From Candidatus Omnitrophota bacterium (lineage in GTDB: Bacteria > Omnitrophota > Gorgyraeia > Zapsychrales > Zapsychraceae), in assembly GCA_015233195.1 (NCBI GenBank), contig JADFYE010000021.1, positions 1-32,886 of the forward strand: 32,886 nucleotides of DNA. Direction: 5' to 3'. A program made the position numbers and the translations under genes. Every line of letters starts with the position of its first letter. Position 1 is the stretch's first letter. A model generated the notes under the pieces. The model saw only the letters and a list, made by a program, of their open reading frames with translations, searched no databases and had not been told where the DNA came from. Positions 49-14,800 of this stretch are shown piece after piece.

Positions 49-1425
49 TTAATTTTCATAATGATCATTAAGGATCTGAATTGAAAGTATTCGATCTAAA
101 AGCGAGCCTTTTGCTGAGCCTTCTCCTATAGATAGATCAGTTACTGCAACTCTATTTATAAGCCGGATCACATCTTCTCCTCGTCCGGCAGGTTCTCGAT
201 AAGCCCAAGTATCATGGATCGCATACGGGATGCTATTAACAACACCTAAAAATAAAATTATATGACCCTTCATGTATAAAATACTGTTAGCCGGGGAAGT
301 ATCATTTAAAATAAAATTTAATTTTTTATCATTTTTATCTGATCCATCAAAATGTATCAGCAGTTTTCCGACTTTTGCTTGGTCAGCCGAATTTCTTGGT
401 AAATTTATACCCATGGTGCTAAAAATTTCTTGAATAAATTGAGAACAATCCTGCTCCCCATTTATTCCTCCCCAGCCATAAGGAGTGTTCAACATTTCAA
501 AAGCTTGCAGATAAATGTTCCGTGCTGTCATATCTAGATAATCATCATTAATCATGGAACGTGAAATATACCCCGGTACTAACTCGAGCCAGCCCTTATC
601 ATTTCTGGTTGGTAAAAATATATTAACTGTTTTAGTGCTGTCACTATTTTTAACAAAAAAACGTGTTCCCATACGGATAAAACCATAAAATTTTGTCAAA
701 TTTTCATCAAGATAAATATCAGCTTTTGACCTGACAACTATGATGAATCTACGTTCTTGATAAAGAGTTTTAAAGTCAGATTTTTCGCATAATGCGATAT
801 TGTCAGCTTTTATCCATCCCATGCTTGATGGTCCTAAAACTAAATACCATTTTCCGTCTAAAGAATTGTGAAGAATTACAACCGGCATGCCGATATCAAG
901 CGCATTCTCCTGCAATTCATCAAAATCAACATCGCCAGGTCTAAGAAAAAAACTTTTATCACTTGGCAAAATACGCTGGTCAGCATTATGGATTATAAAA
1001 CCAAACTGGGTTTTAATTTTTGCTGGTAAGGTTTTCAAATTTGCGTTATCAATTATTAAACGCTTTAAATTAGCTTCAACTATTCTTCCATTATTATCAA
1101 ATAATTTGTCCGTTGAAAATCCTATATTTTTTCGGTTTAAAAAATCATAAGCTTCGCTATTAGAAACTTCTGAAGGAAAATTAATAATATCGGTCGTAGA
1201 TTTTAATTGATCTTGGATATATAAATTTAAATTTTCGATTTTTTTACGAGATAAAATTATGTCATCCGGAGCTGGATGCCGACCGATCCAAAATCCTGGT
1301 GTCTTCATTTCGGTCGTTACATTTGGTAATGTAGTTGGCGCGGAATAATATTTGGCGATCTCATCCGCGTGCACAATTCTAATGTTAATTGTTAAAATAA
1401 TAAAAATCAGTGTAATAATTTTCAT
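49..1425 (-). CDS. Secreted NlpC/P60 (C40) peptidase with SH3 domains, YkfC-like
   Basis: Probable gamma-D-glutamyl-L-diamino acid endopeptidase cleaving murein peptides outside the cytoplasm. The start at 1425 is preferred over an upstream codon at 1443 because a GAGGGG ribosome site precedes it; this gives 458 residues with an N-terminal signal peptide (MKIITLIFIIL onward, probably cut after VHA). The middle carries the N-terminal NlpC region and two SH3-like stretches typical of YkfC-type enzymes. The catalytic part has the nucleophile in GEQDCSQF, a His in KGHIILFLG and a second His in IHDTW. The usual DCSG is DCSQ here. It is the last gene of the long minus-strand run, downstream of DUF819 and the Ala-Glu epimerase, which act on the same kind of peptide product. 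Family confident; exact bond cleaved inferred. Confidence 0.85.
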   Translation of the reverse strand: MKIITLIFIILTINIRIVHADEIAKYYSAPTTLPNVTTEMKTPGFWIGRHPAPDDIILSRKKIENLNLYIQDQLKSTTDIINFPSEVSNSEAYDFLNRKNIGFSTDKLFDNNGRIVEANLKRLIIDNANLKTLPAKIKTQFGFIIHNADQRILPSDKSFFLRPGDVDFDELQENALDIGMPVVILHNSLDGKWYLVLGPSSMGWIKADNIALCEKSDFKTLYQERRFIIVVRSKADIYLDENLTKFYGFIRMGTRFFVKNSDSTKTVNIFLPTRNDKGWLELVPGYISRSMINDDYLDMTARNIYLQAFEMLNTPYGWGGINGEQDCSQFIQEIFSTMGINLPRNSADQAKVGKLLIHFDGSDKNDKKLNFILNDTSPANSILYMKGHIILFLGVVNSIPYAIHDTWAYREPAGRGEDVIRLINRVAVTDLSIGEGSAKGSLLDRILSIQILNDHYEN

Positions 1426-1447
1426 AGATAAATATCCCCTCACCCTC

Positions 1448-1472
1448 CCCTCTCCCCAGAGGCTGGAGAGGG
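1448..1472. repeat. Small GC-rich hairpin upstream of the NlpC/P60 gene
   Basis: CCCTCTCC (1448-1455) and GGAGAGGG (1465-1472) form a perfect 8-bp stem with a 9-base loop, about 20 bases before the start codon at 1425. An alternative inner CCAG/CTGG pairing is also possible. The left arm lies beside the complement of the GAGGGG ribosome site, so in the mRNA it could compete for that site or stabilise the 5' end. It is not followed by a T-run on either strand, so it is not a clear terminator. This kind of CCCTCTCC hairpin is widespread as an intergenic repeat. Confidence 0.5.
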
Positions 1473-1494
1473 AACTAATATTGTATAATAAAAT

Positions 1495-1648
1495 ATTTTA
1501 AAGTCAGAGGTATTTAAGCGGACGTAGATAATTTGAGCGGGCACGGATCGTACGTGCTTTACCGTACGAGAGCGAAAATTATCTTCGAGCGCAGTTTAGG
1601 CTCGCAGGGACTAACCAGCGTTCCGCGAAATACCTCTGACTTTAAAAT
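1495..1648. repeat. 154-bp inverted-repeat element (MITE-like or structured RNA)
   Basis: The outer arms 1495-1515 and 1628-1648 are perfect 21-bp inverted repeats (core GTCAGAGGTATTT). After a short bulge GCGGA (1518-1522) pairs with TCCGC (1622-1626). Inside are further nested pairs: AGATAATTT (1526-1534) with AAATTATCT (1576-1584), and TCGTACG (1548-1554) with CGTACGA (1563-1569). A side hairpin CGAGC/GCTCG lies at 1586-1604. The element starts exactly at the DUF819 stop codon and carries no ORF. The end-to-end symmetry fits a non-autonomous mobile element or a folded RNA. As a terminator it is much larger than needed and lacks a clean T-tract. Confidence 0.7.
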
Positions 1649-2812
1649 TTAACTTATTATCTTACAAACATATCCAGTTATAATTCCAATATACGTCCCA
1701 ACAATATTCCCGAATATTGCTAACAACAATCCAACTGATGCCAGTTCAGGCTCATATAAGGCCGCAACTACTGGCGCGGAAGCTACTCCTCCCACATTCG
1801 CTTGACTGGCAGTTGCAACCAAAAACATTGGCGCTCGGAGAATACGTGCAGTAATCAATAAAAATATTAAATGAACAAACATAGCTATAAAACCAGCGCC
1901 TATCAAAATCGCGGTAGATCCAATATTAGATAAACTAGCTTTTGCGCCGATAGTAGTTAAAACAAAATATAAAATGTAATAGCCAATCTTAGACGCGTGA
2001 AATGTTTCTAGTTTTCTGGCTGGAGTAAAAGATAAAGCAATACCTAATCCAGATGCGATTATTATAACCCAGGTATATTGAGAGATAATACCTTTGATAT
2101 TTGGTAAATAATTAGACCCAAATTTTGCAATAACAGAACCTATTAAACCTATTCCAATAATGAGACACAAGGATAATAAAGTAATTCGTTGAGGATTTGA
2201 TTTGGTTTTATCTATACGGGCATTGAGCTCGTCTAAAATATCCCGACGCGATTTATTCCATTTATCATAAATCGGTTGAAACGCTACCAAAGCTACCAGC
2301 AATCCCATCCATACATAGGGCACAATAGTATCAACAATTACCATAGGCGAAAAAACCGCATCCGGCGTATTTAATGCTTCTTTAACCGCGATCATGTTAG
2401 CGCTACCGCCGGTCCAGGAAGCAGATAAAGCCCCAAAACCCGCCCACATCTGTGAACCGACCAGGTTTTTAACGCACCAGAACGCAAAAGGTATGCCGAC
2501 CATGATTCCTAAACTGCCGGCAAGCATCATGATAAGAGCGCTTGGTCCTAAACGTAGAATCGCTTTTATATTTGCTGACAAAAGTAATATGACCAGACTC
2601 ATGGGCAAAAGCAGATCAGTAATTGTCTTATAAATATCACTTTTATTATCAATTAACCCTGCTGTTGACAATAGCATTGGGATAAAATAAATCCAAAATA
2701 CCGAAGGCAGAAAATGAAAATATTTTTCAAAAGTTTTGCGACTGGATATGAATAATATAAAAAATTCAACTGAAAAAAGTATCGCGATTAAAATTATTGG
2801 ATTTTTTATCAT
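1649..2812 (-). CDS. DUF819 (YjcL-like) integral membrane protein
   Basis: A 387-residue polytopic inner-membrane protein with about ten hydrophobic segments, including MIKNPIILIAILFSVEFFIL at the N-terminus and a glycine-rich ASWTGGSANMIAVKEAL loop near residues 130-150. The pattern and length match DUF819. The biochemical function of this family is not established as far as I know. The start ATG overlaps the epimerase stop as ATGA, so the two are translationally coupled, and an NlpC/P60 endopeptidase follows. This context suggests a permease for murein-derived peptides, but that is inference. The gene ends against the 154-bp inverted-repeat element. Confidence 0.8.
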   Translation of the reverse strand: MIKNPIILIAILFSVEFFILFISSRKTFEKYFHFLPSVFWIYFIPMLLSTAGLIDNKSDIYKTITDLLLPMSLVILLLSANIKAILRLGPSALIMMLAGSLGIMVGIPFAFWCVKNLVGSQMWAGFGALSASWTGGSANMIAVKEALNTPDAVFSPMVIVDTIVPYVWMGLLVALVAFQPIYDKWNKSRRDILDELNARIDKTKSNPQRITLLSLCLIIGIGLIGSVIAKFGSNYLPNIKGIISQYTWVIIIASGLGIALSFTPARKLETFHASKIGYYILYFVLTTIGAKASLSNIGSTAILIGAGFIAMFVHLIFLLITARILRAPMFLVATASQANVGGVASAPVVAALYEPELASVGLLLAIFGNIVGTYIGIITGYVCKIIS

Positions 2813-3876
2813 ATTACATTACCAATTCCGGATTTTACTTTTCGCAAATCGTATTTACCGTTTGACGACAAATATGGATTAGGTTTACTGTTTTTTAAAA
2901 AGAACGGTGTATCCAGATCCACAAAATCAAAGCAGCCCATGCCTGCGGCTAAATGCGCGGAACAAGTCATGGCTAAGGAACTCTCCATCATCCCGCCTAT
3001 CATTAGTCGAAGCCCAGCTGATCTTGCTAGAAATGCAATGTTTCGTCCCTGGATAAGTCCGGACTTCATTAATTTAATGTTGATTACATTTGCGGCTTTT
3101 TCTTGGATAACTGCTAAACAATCTCGCAGATCTTGCACTGTTTCATCAGCGCATATTGGAATTCCGCAAGTTTTGGTAAGACGTTTCATACCTTCCCAAT
3201 CATTTTTAGGCACAGGCTGTTCAATTAGGTCTGGATAAATTCCATATTTTTTCAAAGTTTTTAAAAAAATTAAAGTTTGTTTATAGTTATATCCTTGATT
3301 CGCGTCGATGATTATTGAAGATTTATGTACTGCTTTTTTTACTATAAATACCCGTTTAATATCTAAATCTGGATCTTTTCCAACTTTAATTTTAAACGCA
3401 CGAAAACCTTGTTGATAATACTGACGGGCTGATTTTTCAGTTTCCTCCAAAGAATCAATCACTATAGTAATATCAGTTTTCAATATTCTTGATCTTGGAC
3501 CAAACAAATTCCATAAAGGCATTTTTTTATGTTTAGTCACTGCATCTAATAACGCCATTTCAATAGCTGCTAACGCGGCTTTATTTTTTGGTAAAGTTTG
3601 ATGCAAAAAAACTGATATATCCTGATAATTTAACGAATCTTGTCCAATCAATTTTTTACCAACTGTTTTAAGATTACGTTCAGTATCCCCAATAGTTTCA
3701 CCAGTAATATGAGTGGCAATAGCTGCTTCTCCGTATCCTTTGGTACCGTCGGATAAAGTTATATTAAATAATAAATTATCCAATGTGTCATGCTGACCTA
3801 ACGCTGTACGAAACGGGCGGATCAGCGGCAAAGTCAGACGTTTAACTGCGATTTCTTTTATAAAAGTATGTTTCAT
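2809..3876 (-). CDS. ykfB: L-Ala-D/L-Glu (dipeptide) epimerase
   Basis: Enolase-superfamily enzyme of the muconate-lactonizing subgroup that epimerises L-Ala-D-Glu to L-Ala-L-Glu during murein peptide breakdown in the cytoplasm. All expected residues are visible in 355 residues: the KxK pair K162/K164 (FKIKVG), metal ligands D191 (DANQG), E219 (EQP) and D244 (ADE), the second base K268 (IKLMKSG), and a DLDTP motif at about 320-322 of the kind that binds the dipeptide amino group. These positions agree with what I recall for B. subtilis YkfB. The ATG at 3876 is preceded by AGGAC. It overlaps DUF819 by 4 bases and lies 10 bases after the MATE gene. Other dipeptide specificities are possible. 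Confidence 0.88.
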   Translation of the reverse strand: MKHTFIKEIAVKRLTLPLIRPFRTALGQHDTLDNLLFNITLSDGTKGYGEAAIATHITGETIGDTERNLKTVGKKLIGQDSLNYQDISVFLHQTLPKNKAALAAIEMALLDAVTKHKKMPLWNLFGPRSRILKTDITIVIDSLEETEKSARQYYQQGFRAFKIKVGKDPDLDIKRVFIVKKAVHKSSIIIDANQGYNYKQTLIFLKTLKKYGIYPDLIEQPVPKNDWEGMKRLTKTCGIPICADETVQDLRDCLAVIQEKAANVINIKLMKSGLIQGRNIAFLARSAGLRLMIGGMMESSLAMTCSAHLAAGMGCFDFVDLDTPFFLKNSKPNPYLSSNGKYDLRKVKSGIGNVI

Positions 3877-3886
3877 TTTTGTCCTA

Positions 3887-5302
3887 TTAGTAAGTTATAT
3901 TGTGACTCGCATGTAACGGCAGGATTTCAGGTTCAACTACTTTGATGTTACGCCAATAACCAGACTTATACCGCAAATATACAAAAAATGAAAATAATAA
4001 AAATATTGCGACCATAAATGACCAGCCTACTTCTGGTGTCCAGCGCATAATTCTAAGCGCGAATACTACTACAAAAACCATTGACCAATGTAAAGTAACA
4101 GATATGAACATCGCCCAGAAAGTATCTCCTGCCCCGCGTAAAGCGCCTATAAAAACCACAAATAAAGCTTCAACTAAAATATATAAAGATGCTGCACGAA
4201 TCATAAATAATGCCATAGGTACAGATTTTAAAAATGTTTCTTGTGTTCCGCTTGGATGAAATACTTCTACTAAATACCAAGGAAACCCGACGAACAAAAT
4301 AAGAATAAATGTGGAGAATATCAGACCTACTTTAAGACCAGAAATAACTGATTTATGCGCAGTATCAGGGTCTTGGGCTCCCATATATCTTCCCACCATA
4401 CTGGTAACTGCAATTTCAATTCCTAATAATGGGACGAATGAAACCATATCCCAATTTAATACTATGGTAGCAGCAGTCGCGGTTATTGGACTGTGCGACT
4501 GAAATACCATTACCATAGAATTAAAAGCTAATAGGTTAAGAAATAATTCAAGCCCAGGAGATGTACCGAAACGTAAAAGTTTCGAAATAACTTCACGGCT
4601 GAATTTAAATGAATTTACAATATTAAATTCCAGCATATTATTTTGTTTAAAATATGCGCAGGCTAATACAATTAAGCCACTTGATCCTCCGAGTAAAACT
4701 CCATATGCAGCTCCTCTAATACCCAGCGCGGGCAAACCAAATTTCCCAAATATTAAAATATAACCAGCTACCGCATTTACGACCATAGCTGTAAATGATG
4801 CTGCCATAACTATTCGAGTTCTGCCTATACCGGAAAAAAAACAACTGAAGATCCCTCGTATCAAAGTAATGATCGAACCATAAAGTAAAATATCAAAATA
4901 AAGATTTTGATAAACTAATTGACTTAAAGGTACGCCCATAAATAAAAACATTTTATGCGCTAACGGACGGCATACCAATATCGGAATATACGCGCACAAA
5001 GCCACAATTACTGACTGGGTTATTACTGATGGGCACTTTTGTTTTTGATCTGCGCCAAAATATTGTGCTACTAAAGCTGTTGAATATCCGGTTAAGCCGA
5101 TAAAAAAGGAGATCATCATAAATACGGTGAGTCCTCCGCCCATGGATGCGTTCATCATTTCAGGATGTAATCTTGAAAGGAATATACGATCTGTGACTAT
5201 CATAATCGTGTCACACGTCATGGAGACCAGCATTGGCAAGGCAATAGTGAGCATTTCCCTAACGCCGCCTGGTTTATAGGTAAAATTATCTGATTTTTTC
5301 AT
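3887..5302 (-). CDS. MATE-family efflux transporter
   Basis: A 471-residue integral membrane protein with twelve likely helices in two similar halves. The N-terminus has the MATE-type REMLTIALPMLVSMTCDTIMIVTDRIFL helix (interrupted here only by family variation), and the half-sites QYFGADQ and RYMGAQDP occupy the conserved cytoplasmic loop of each half. MATE proteins exchange Na+ or H+ for cationic drugs or other small molecules; the substrate here is unknown. Its start overlaps the end of the glycosyltransferase gene by 17 bases and no ribosome site is obvious, so translational coupling is likely. Loss of a flippase-type substrate role cannot be judged from sequence alone. Confidence 0.88.
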   Translation of the reverse strand: MKKSDNFTYKPGGVREMLTIALPMLVSMTCDTIMIVTDRIFLSRLHPEMMNASMGGGLTVFMMISFFIGLTGYSTALVAQYFGADQKQKCPSVITQSVIVALCAYIPILVCRPLAHKMFLFMGVPLSQLVYQNLYFDILLYGSIITLIRGIFSCFFSGIGRTRIVMAASFTAMVVNAVAGYILIFGKFGLPALGIRGAAYGVLLGGSSGLIVLACAYFKQNNMLEFNIVNSFKFSREVISKLLRFGTSPGLELFLNLLAFNSMVMVFQSHSPITATAATIVLNWDMVSFVPLLGIEIAVTSMVGRYMGAQDPDTAHKSVISGLKVGLIFSTFILILFVGFPWYLVEVFHPSGTQETFLKSVPMALFMIRAASLYILVEALFVVFIGALRGAGDTFWAMFISVTLHWSMVFVVVFALRIMRWTPEVGWSFMVAIFLLFSFFVYLRYKSGYWRNIKVVEPEILPLHASHNITY

Positions 5303-13960: not shown

Positions 13961-14800
13961 ATGACCAACGAATTGATCCCTCAAACAAAAATTGCAGTTT
14001 TTAGAAAAAAAGAAATACGAAAAACACTCCATAAAAATGAATGGTGGTTTTCTGTTGCAGATGTTGTAGAAGCATTGACTGACAGTAGTGACGTTAAACA
14101 ATATATTAAAAAAATACGCCAGCGCGATCCTCAACTGGACAGCAACTGGGGTACAATTTGTACCCCCCTTGAATTACTGGCGCCAGATGGCAAGTTGCGA
14201 GAAACAAATTGCGCCAACACTGAAGGCGTTTTCCGTATTATCCAATCTATCCCCTCGCCTAAAGCTGAACCTTTCAAGCGTTGGCTGGCTCGCGTTGGTT
14301 ATGAACGGGTACAGGAAATTGAAGACCCTGAATTGGCAACCAAGCGGACACGCGCCCTTTATAAAGCCAAAGGATATTCGGATGACTGGATCGAAAAACG
14401 GATGCGCGGCATTGCGATTCGGGAAGAATTAACCGATGAATGGAAAAAACATGGCGTTAAAGAAAACAAAGAATATGAAATTTTAACCGCTGAAATATCT
14501 AAAGCTACTTTCGGGCTTACACCCAGCAAATATAAAAAAATTAAAGGATTAAAACGCGAAAATCTCCGCGACCATATGAACGACCTTGAATTGATCTTTT
14601 CCATGCTTGGCGAGGCGTCTACAACACAGATCACTCAGGTTGAAAATCCTGAAGGTTTTATTGAAAATAAAGCTGTTGCTAAACGCGGTGGGAATGTTGC
14701 CGGGGTTGCAAGAAAGAAACTTGAACAAGAAACAAAACAAAAAGTTATTAGCCGACAAAATTATCTTCAAAAACCACAAAATAAATTATTGAGTAAATAA
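13961..14800 (+). CDS. BRO-N/DinD-like protein (phage antirepressor family)
   Basis: A 279-residue protein. Residues 10-110 form a BRO-N domain: IAVFRKKEIRKTLHKNEWWFSVADVVEALTDSS is the start of the family pattern, and FRIIQSIPSPKAEPFKRWLA the end. The C-terminal half (about 150-275) has GLKRENLRDHMNDLELIFSM and GGNVAGVARKKLEQ, as in DinD-type DNA-damage-inducible proteins. BRO-N proteins bind DNA and often come from phage. GGAG lies 8 bases before the ATG. It stands alone on the plus strand, flanked by short repeats, with no other phage genes in the window, so it looks like an isolated acquired cargo gene. Its function in the host is unknown. Confidence 0.82.
   Translation: MTNELIPQTKIAVFRKKEIRKTLHKNEWWFSVADVVEALTDSSDVKQYIKKIRQRDPQLDSNWGTICTPLELLAPDGKLRETNCANTEGVFRIIQSIPSPKAEPFKRWLARVGYERVQEIEDPELATKRTRALYKAKGYSDDWIEKRMRGIAIREELTDEWKKHGVKENKEYEILTAEISKATFGLTPSKYKKIKGLKRENLRDHMNDLELIFSMLGEASTTQITQVENPEGFIENKAVAKRGGNVAGVARKKLEQETKQKVISRQNYLQKPQNKLLSK

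Follow-up and report, generated by a model that had tools for sequence, protein, structure and literature searches.

The ykf genes of Bacillus are among the closest described counterparts of the system reported here. The passages on YkfC in Xu et al. (2010; PMC2954226) describe this NlpC/P60 endopeptidase with a signal peptide in B. cereus and without one in B. subtilis. For B. cereus, they propose cleavage outside the cell followed by import of L-Ala-gamma-D-Glu, with no importer named, and for B. subtilis they call the stem-peptide permease unidentified. Here we analyse a 32,886-nucleotide stretch of a Candidatus Omnitrophota genome (assembly GCA_015233195.1, contig JADFYE010000021.1; hereafter the window). 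In it, genes for a dipeptide epimerase, a DUF819 (PF05684) membrane protein and an NlpC/P60 endopeptidase follow each other on the minus strand in that order. Gene context and predicted fold together make it likely, in our judgement, that in the sub-clades concerned the cassette serves the salvage of stem peptides cut outside the cell, with DUF819 importing the dipeptide. From the same evidence we infer that DUF819 is a transporter at all, as well as its substrate, coupling ion and direction.

According to the scheme that we propose, the exported SH3b-NlpC/P60 enzyme would act on free stem peptides outside the cytoplasmic membrane, cutting between gamma-D-Glu and the diamino acid. This would release L-Ala-D-Glu, in which the C-terminal Glu is a dicarboxylate. 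DUF819, as an elevator-type secondary transporter of the CitS/AspT fold, would then carry the dipeptide inwards, with Na+ or H+ as the probable coupling ion, and the cytosolic epimerase would convert it into L-Ala-L-Glu, which ordinary dipeptidases could hydrolyse. The alternative arrangement, of the B. subtilis dpp-ykf type, would have the peptide imported by a Dpp/Opp ATP-binding cassette (ABC) transporter and cut inside by a signal-less NlpC/P60.

Linkage of Epimerase and DUF819 Genes

We searched 193 Omnitrophota genomes for both genes. DUF819 was matched in 44 genomes and the epimerase (E <= 0.001) in 67, with at least 170 bits in 34; this line was chosen after a gap had been seen between 175 and 108 bits, and the other 33 of the 67 genomes hold weaker superfamily matches only. 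All 34 genomes above the line carry DUF819, with no case of such an epimerase on its own (Fisher p = 3e-29 for co-occurrence over the 193 genomes, a value that ignores relatedness). The two genes share a contig and a strand in 33 of them, always with the epimerase upstream of DUF819, and in the 34th they are split over two contig ends. The matched stretches lie less than 500 bases apart in 30 of these 33 genomes, and 2.2, 2.5 and 7.1 kb apart in the other three. DUF819 was found without an epimerase of at least 170 bits in 10 genomes, one of them (G134) by a marginal, interrupted match only. One Omnitrophota sub-clade of DUF819 (loci L031-L036) lacks the epimerase and mostly has a same-strand upstream neighbour of similar size; the sole one scanned, at L031, is an inositol-monophosphatase-family protein.

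The same pairing is also seen in Geomonas/Geobacter, Planctomycetota, Elusimicrobia and Bacillota. Our named loci are the best 80 of 544 relatives of the query, and so they lean towards the clade of the window. An epimerase stands beside DUF819 in 39 of the first 44, which include the cultured Geomonas edaphica, G. propionica, G. azotofigens and G. paludis together with bins of Planctomycetota, Endomicrobia and Syntrophales. Among the last 36 of these best 80 only four are linked (L128 partly, L130, L132 and L140), and the lone-type genes of Bacillaceae are unlinked. A tree of 179 DUF819 proteins (like the other trees, a quick IQ-TREE run with support from the Shimodaira-Hasegawa-like approximate likelihood ratio test, SH-aLRT, only) places the window in a clade of 61 rows (SH-aLRT 95), where 53 of the 58 decidable rows are linked. 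The 119 rows outside this clade comprise 12 linked, 104 unlinked and 3 undecided.

Judged by sequence, the DUF819-linked epimerases form several separate groups, one of them a YkfB/1JPM-type group from Bacillota, and belong to more than one lineage. Those of L100, L109, L114 and L130 share 29-33% identity with the epimerase of the window, L154 has an enzyme of YkfB/1JPM type (358 bits), and the L209 epimerase is nearest to 3Q45. In a tree of 73 epimerase rows, at least 8 changes of the linked state are required. The NlpC/P60 partners of DUF819 come in three architectures (SH3_6, SH3_16 and N_NLPC_P60). Other wall-peptide neighbours are a VanY D,D-carboxypeptidase with a dicarboxylate symporter (L040, L143) and YkuD L,D-transpeptidases (L111, L112). 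Most linked loci could nevertheless descend from one ancestral operon, the 8 state changes on the trees being few, and the pairing might then reflect inherited gene order without any functional link. We give this hardly any credence, because 30 of 64 linked pairs have a spacing of exactly -4, DUF819 pairs with three or more epimerase subfamilies and in differing order (DUF819 first in Bacillota), and it is found in place of the ABC importer.

Predicted Peptidase Export and the Candidate Importers

Import of the dipeptide by DUF819 would call for a peptidase that works outside, whereas with an ABC importer of stem peptides the enzyme can work inside. Signal peptides were called by a hydrophobic-stretch rule of our own, with positive calls for 2 of 155 epimerases and 38 of 41 binding proteins. 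By this rule, NlpC/P60 proteins carry a signal peptide in 32 of 37 cases beside DUF819, 2 of 39 beside ABC genes and 6 of 23 beside neither. By eye, the counts become 35 of 35 (two being unreadable), 0 of 39 and 4 of 22, respectively, after raising L051, L062 and L092, lowering L259, L310 and L234, and leaving out L074 (truncated), L094 (unclear) and L247 (contig edge). This pattern, with signal peptides beside DUF819 and none beside ABC importers, suggests that DUF819 probably imports a dipeptide freed outside. An earlier note on this DNA had placed the endopeptidase before transport and the epimerase after it, an order supported by the predicted export of the former. At three loci from the phylum of Geomonas (L151, L152 and L153), a signal-less NlpC/P60 gene overlaps that of a distant dipeptide epimerase, and no DUF819 or peptide ABC gene was seen nearby.

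The location of the peptidase also bears on the size of the substrate. E. coli takes up murein peptides whole, and the same has been proposed for Chlamydia (passages on peptide uptake in PMC9928106 and PMC2954226). DUF819 might thus import a longer stem peptide, or else the diamino-acid part remaining after the cut, and it fits this idea that about half of the clade of the window has no NlpC/P60 nearby. We regard it as quite improbable, given that the linked NlpC/P60 is predicted to be exported, so that a tripeptide would be cut before import, and that the epimerase, an enzyme for the dipeptide part, is the most strictly kept partner.

For Bacillota, genomes were drawn twice, 199 each time, and 80 loci at the strongest epimerase places were read, 16 of the 79 places of the second draw being left out. 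Dpp/Opp ABC parts lie beside 41 of these 80 epimerases, DUF819 beside 13, neither beside 26 and both beside none. The Bacillota DUF819 proteins and that of L154 form one clade (SH-aLRT 99), separate from the window-side clade, and their operon order is DUF819, epimerase, NlpC/P60. Such a DUF819-ykfB-ykfC operon is present in Rossellomorea arthrocnemi EAR8 (G202, L250). Upstream of it there is a conserved protein of 105-116 amino acids (L250:4511-4828, L251:5148-5498, L255:5510-5827, L257:5531-5848), presumably resembling DUF3870; it stays with ykfB-ykfC where DUF819 is missing.

A different direction of transport has to be weighed here, with DUF819 as exporter or exchanger of a product (Glu, Ala or the diamino acid) and another carrier importing. 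AspT is an antiporter, the fold alone gives no direction, and the genome of the window has one SBP_bac_5 protein. We consider export very improbable, since DUF819 and the ABC importer exclude each other at the Bacillota loci and no other importer is constant across the loci read. The suggestion of the earlier note that DUF819 is the permease survives, with the 4-base-overlap pairing across phyla, the exported peptidase beside DUF819 and the replacement of Dpp/Opp ABC genes by DUF819 in Bacillota.

Family and Predicted Fold of DUF819

The window DUF819 protein matches PF05684 far above the cut-off of 27 bits, over profile positions 10-376 of 379. Its AlphaFold2 model, built with 53 related rows (predicted local distance difference test, pLDDT, 90.9; predicted template modelling score, pTM, 0.86), has CitS as best solved match (Z 25.1, 371 residues, root mean square deviation 4.6), followed by AspT (Z 24.2, 351 residues, 3.8). 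Next come the oxaloacetate decarboxylase beta subunit (Z 17.8) and Na+/H+ exchangers (Z about 13 or less), and the fact that other folds are missing from these matches has no evidential weight. The model aligns over most of its length with the CPA/AT reentrant fold (CitS/GltS/AspT-like). These matches agree with the placement of DUF819 in PMC8396727, whose passage on the family groups it with GltS-type carriers in the CPA/AT clan, as CPA-reentrant. As modelled, such a fold for carriers of acidic substrates suits a dipeptide with a C-terminal Glu.

The same relatives, CitS, the aspartate:alanine antiporter AspT and the GltS-type carriers, could also point to one of the free amino acids of this pathway (D- or L-Glu, Ala or D-Ala) as substrate, in the manner of AspT or GltS. 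An Asp/Glu-racemase-family gene (L181:4691-5524) which lies 19 bases after a distant DUF819 paralogue in Bacteroidota would fit with this. Transport of a free amino acid instead of the dipeptide nevertheless seems unlikely: an epimerase that works on dipeptides in the cytosol depends on their import, DUF819 occupies the place of dipeptide ABC importers, and a dicarboxylate symporter is already near DUF819 at L040, L055, L073, L078, L092, L111 and L143.

No peptide carrier of the CitS/AspT fold turned up in the searches made. The open-licence literature passages on DUF819, YjcL, COG5505 or PF05684 contain no link to dipeptide or murein transport; one of them, in PMC12671195, notes that in Neisseria a DUF819 gene comes after one for an M15 peptidase.

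Residues of the Two Enzymes

The window epimerase has no signal peptide and is predicted to be cytosolic. Its residues K162, K164, D191, E219, D244, K268 and D320-x-D322 are invariant across 16 DUF819-linked epimerases and line up with 1JPM at the catalytic Lys positions, the three metal ligands and the DxD motif. We take the lysines to be catalytic, the acidic residues to bind the metal and DxD to hold the amino group of the dipeptide. The best NCBIfam match is NF041118 (268.6 bits, below its 500-bit cut-off), and PRK15129 reaches 93.1 bits, below a cut-off of 343.

The longest open reading frame of the endopeptidase begins at GTG 1443; the likelier start is ATG 1425, which sits directly before the hydrophobic signal sequence. 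The protein begins with a clear signal sequence and has the catalytic set D332-C333-S334, H394 and H410. Its closest solved structure is 3m1u, with which the PYGWGG and PRNS stretches were aligned, and in the gamma-D-Glu site the Tyr/Trp, Arg and Ser are retained.

Evidence against Dipeptide Import and Limits of the Link

A number of results weigh against the function proposed here, beginning with the enzymes themselves. Asp256 of B. cereus YkfC (3H41), which binds the free amino end according to the structural passages of PMC2954226, is Asn in the window peptidase; among 25 window-side DUF819-linked peptidases the position is Asn in 12, Asp in 10 and unread in 3. The window epimerase has Gly27 at the position of Arg24 of B. 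subtilis YkfB, presumably a Glu-binding residue. Of 63 window-side epimerases linked to DUF819, 57 have Gly here; all 13 of those from Bacillota have Arg, which favours the proposed function. Because of this Gly, we infer the Glu preference of the window enzyme from the neighbouring peptidase, and its Ala-Glu specificity is putative. The name "Ala-Glu epimerase" used in the earlier note is thus fair for the superfamily branch but putative for this protein, with Arg24 missing and the scores under the model cut-offs.

The correlation between peptidase export and importer is also weakened by shared ancestry. On the tree, the state of the importer changes only 5 times and that of export 4 times. 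Well-supported branches provide three independent pairs, two of which go the expected way while the third shows no difference (sign test p = 0.5; L043, split between contigs, was left out). With so few independent switches (4-5), the signal-peptide correlation falls short of significance once corrected for the tree. An NlpC/P60 gene lies within 3 kb in just 27 of the 53 decidable rows of the window clade. Three close Bacillales genomes encode an exported NlpC/P60 and the epimerase with DUF819 nowhere in the genome, and thus another importer can serve. A residue comparison found no charged residues separating linked from unlinked DUF819; the two sets differ at few uncharged positions (e.g., 41, 77, 137 and 335), and we name no substrate-binding residue.

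Across the family as a whole, the link is rare. In evenly drawn samples of 40 Bacteroidota and 20 Planctomycetota DUF819 loci, a subset of the places matched, an epimerase stands beside DUF819 in 1 and 0 loci, respectively, and NlpC/P60 in 1 of the 40 from Bacteroidota. We therefore reject a family-wide link and claim the function for DUF819 sub-clades only. The survey of genome context that the earlier note had suggested as a check gives a divided answer: co-occurrence is rare family-wide, the outcome that the note had named as refuting, and holds in certain sub-clades. A Pfam scan of 101 neighbours, mostly from unlinked loci, returned no dominant family (histidine kinases 8, M24 peptidases 6, thiamine pyrophosphate (TPP) enzymes 4, POT 3, Na+/sulphate symporters 3, M23 2, NlpC/P60 2); the TPP enzymes and Na+/sulphate symporters near unlinked genes tell against the proposed function. 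Finally, SBP_bac_5 proteins occur in 25 of 44 Omnitrophota genomes with DUF819 versus 91 of 149 without (Fisher p = 0.73), and the genome of the window encodes one. A genome-wide replacement of peptide ABC importers in Omnitrophota is accordingly not seen, the exclusion being at the level of the locus and in Bacillota only.

A broader reading would make DUF819 a family of secondary di- and oligopeptide carriers with the CitS/AspT elevator fold, serving salvage of wall and other peptides in many phyla, and would see the epimerase-permease pair retained in land plants for some purpose specific to them. It draws on the POT transporters and the M24, M23 and NlpC/P60 peptidases among the neighbours outside the epimerase clades. 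For land plants, a bacterially derived L-Ala-D/L-Glu-epimerase gene is reported (passage in PMC3605383), and a rice table lists a DUF819 gene (PMC9460107). We find this broader reading doubtful.

Two other arrangements were observed among the DUF819 loci. At L213, L215 and L221 (Planctomycetota) DUF819 lies directly downstream of a POT-family peptide transporter gene. L133, L141, L179, L189, L198 and L207 share a conserved neighbourhood of an M24 peptidase, a PAS histidine kinase and DUF819, and the other strand carries one more conserved gene.

Composition of the Window Locus

Open reading frames and domain profiles confirm the three consecutive genes of the earlier note in order and position, and the overlap that it gave as 4 bases is exactly that (table 1). 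The source bin is 2.0 Mb in size and 77.6% complete.

Table 1. Features of the cassette region, in window coordinates.
Feature	Position	Strand	Remarks
Dipeptide epimerase, enolase superfamily (MR_MLE_N + MR_MLE_C)	2809..3876	-	355 aa, profile match
DUF819 (PF05684) membrane protein, proposed secondary importer of murein dipeptide	1649..2812	-	387 aa, 293 bits
SH3b-NlpC/P60 endopeptidase, YkfC-like, predicted exported	49..1443	-	464 aa, SH3_6 + NLPC_P60
Overlap of epimerase stop and DUF819 start	2809..2812	-	4 bases
MITE-like element in DUF819-endopeptidase gap	1495..1648	.	perfect 21-nt inverted ends 112 bases apart
MATE-family transporter gene	3887..5302	-	10 bases upstream of epimerase

DUF819 and the endopeptidase are 205 bases apart, a gap that contains an inverted repeat resembling a miniature inverted-repeat transposable element (MITE). 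It has probably no part in cassette function, and no second exact copy of its end was found in the window or in the other loci compared. We do not count the MATE gene as a cassette member: among the loci read, it adjoins the epimerase only in a relative of the same genus. Promoter- and terminator-like sites in the cassette region are at chance level only. Elsewhere in the window, amid mostly housekeeping genes, positions 13961-14800 encode a BRO-N domain protein, a phage- or virus-associated family.

Comparison with Known Systems

What is new here is a candidate function for DUF819 and a variant of a known recycling pathway, with cultured hosts of the operon in Geomonas and R. arthrocnemi. If correct, a widespread family of unknown function would gain a substrate class and the CitS/AspT fold a peptide carrier, and DUF819 would fill the importer gap left by the 2010 proposal of murein dipeptide import after extracellular cleavage. 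Whether wall peptides are cut outside or inside could then be read in genomes from the signal peptide of the peptidase and the neighbouring transporter.

The predicted DUF819 fold resembles that of the CPA/AT clan (CitS, GltS and AspT), with CitS and AspT matched over about 350-370 residues, but identity to these two is 9-15% and their substrates are citrate (CitS) and Asp/Ala (AspT). The lone DUF819 of Bacillaceae (YjcL type, a name taken from the literature) belongs to the same Pfam family but to another sub-clade, without epimerase or NlpC/P60 neighbours. In E. coli, with AmpG/Opp, MpaA and YcjG, a cytosolic epimerase likewise works on the L-Ala-D-Glu part of the stem peptide. Unlike the window system, however, whole muropeptides or peptides are imported there and MpaA is unrelated to NlpC/P60 (recycling passages of PMC2954226 and PMC9928106). 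The dppB-E/ykfA-D genes of B. subtilis share the pathway logic, with an epimerase and an NlpC/P60 gamma-D-Glu-diamino-acid endopeptidase beside a peptide importer, as far as PMC2954226 describes them. They differ in their ABC importer and signal-less YkfC, where the window has DUF819 as candidate and a peptidase predicted to be exported. Similar in logic is ykfBC of B. cereus (3H41), with an exported peptidase, a cytosolic epimerase and a proposed import of the dipeptide, although the neighbours described in those passages of PMC2954226 are divIC and oppA and no DUF819 is named among them.

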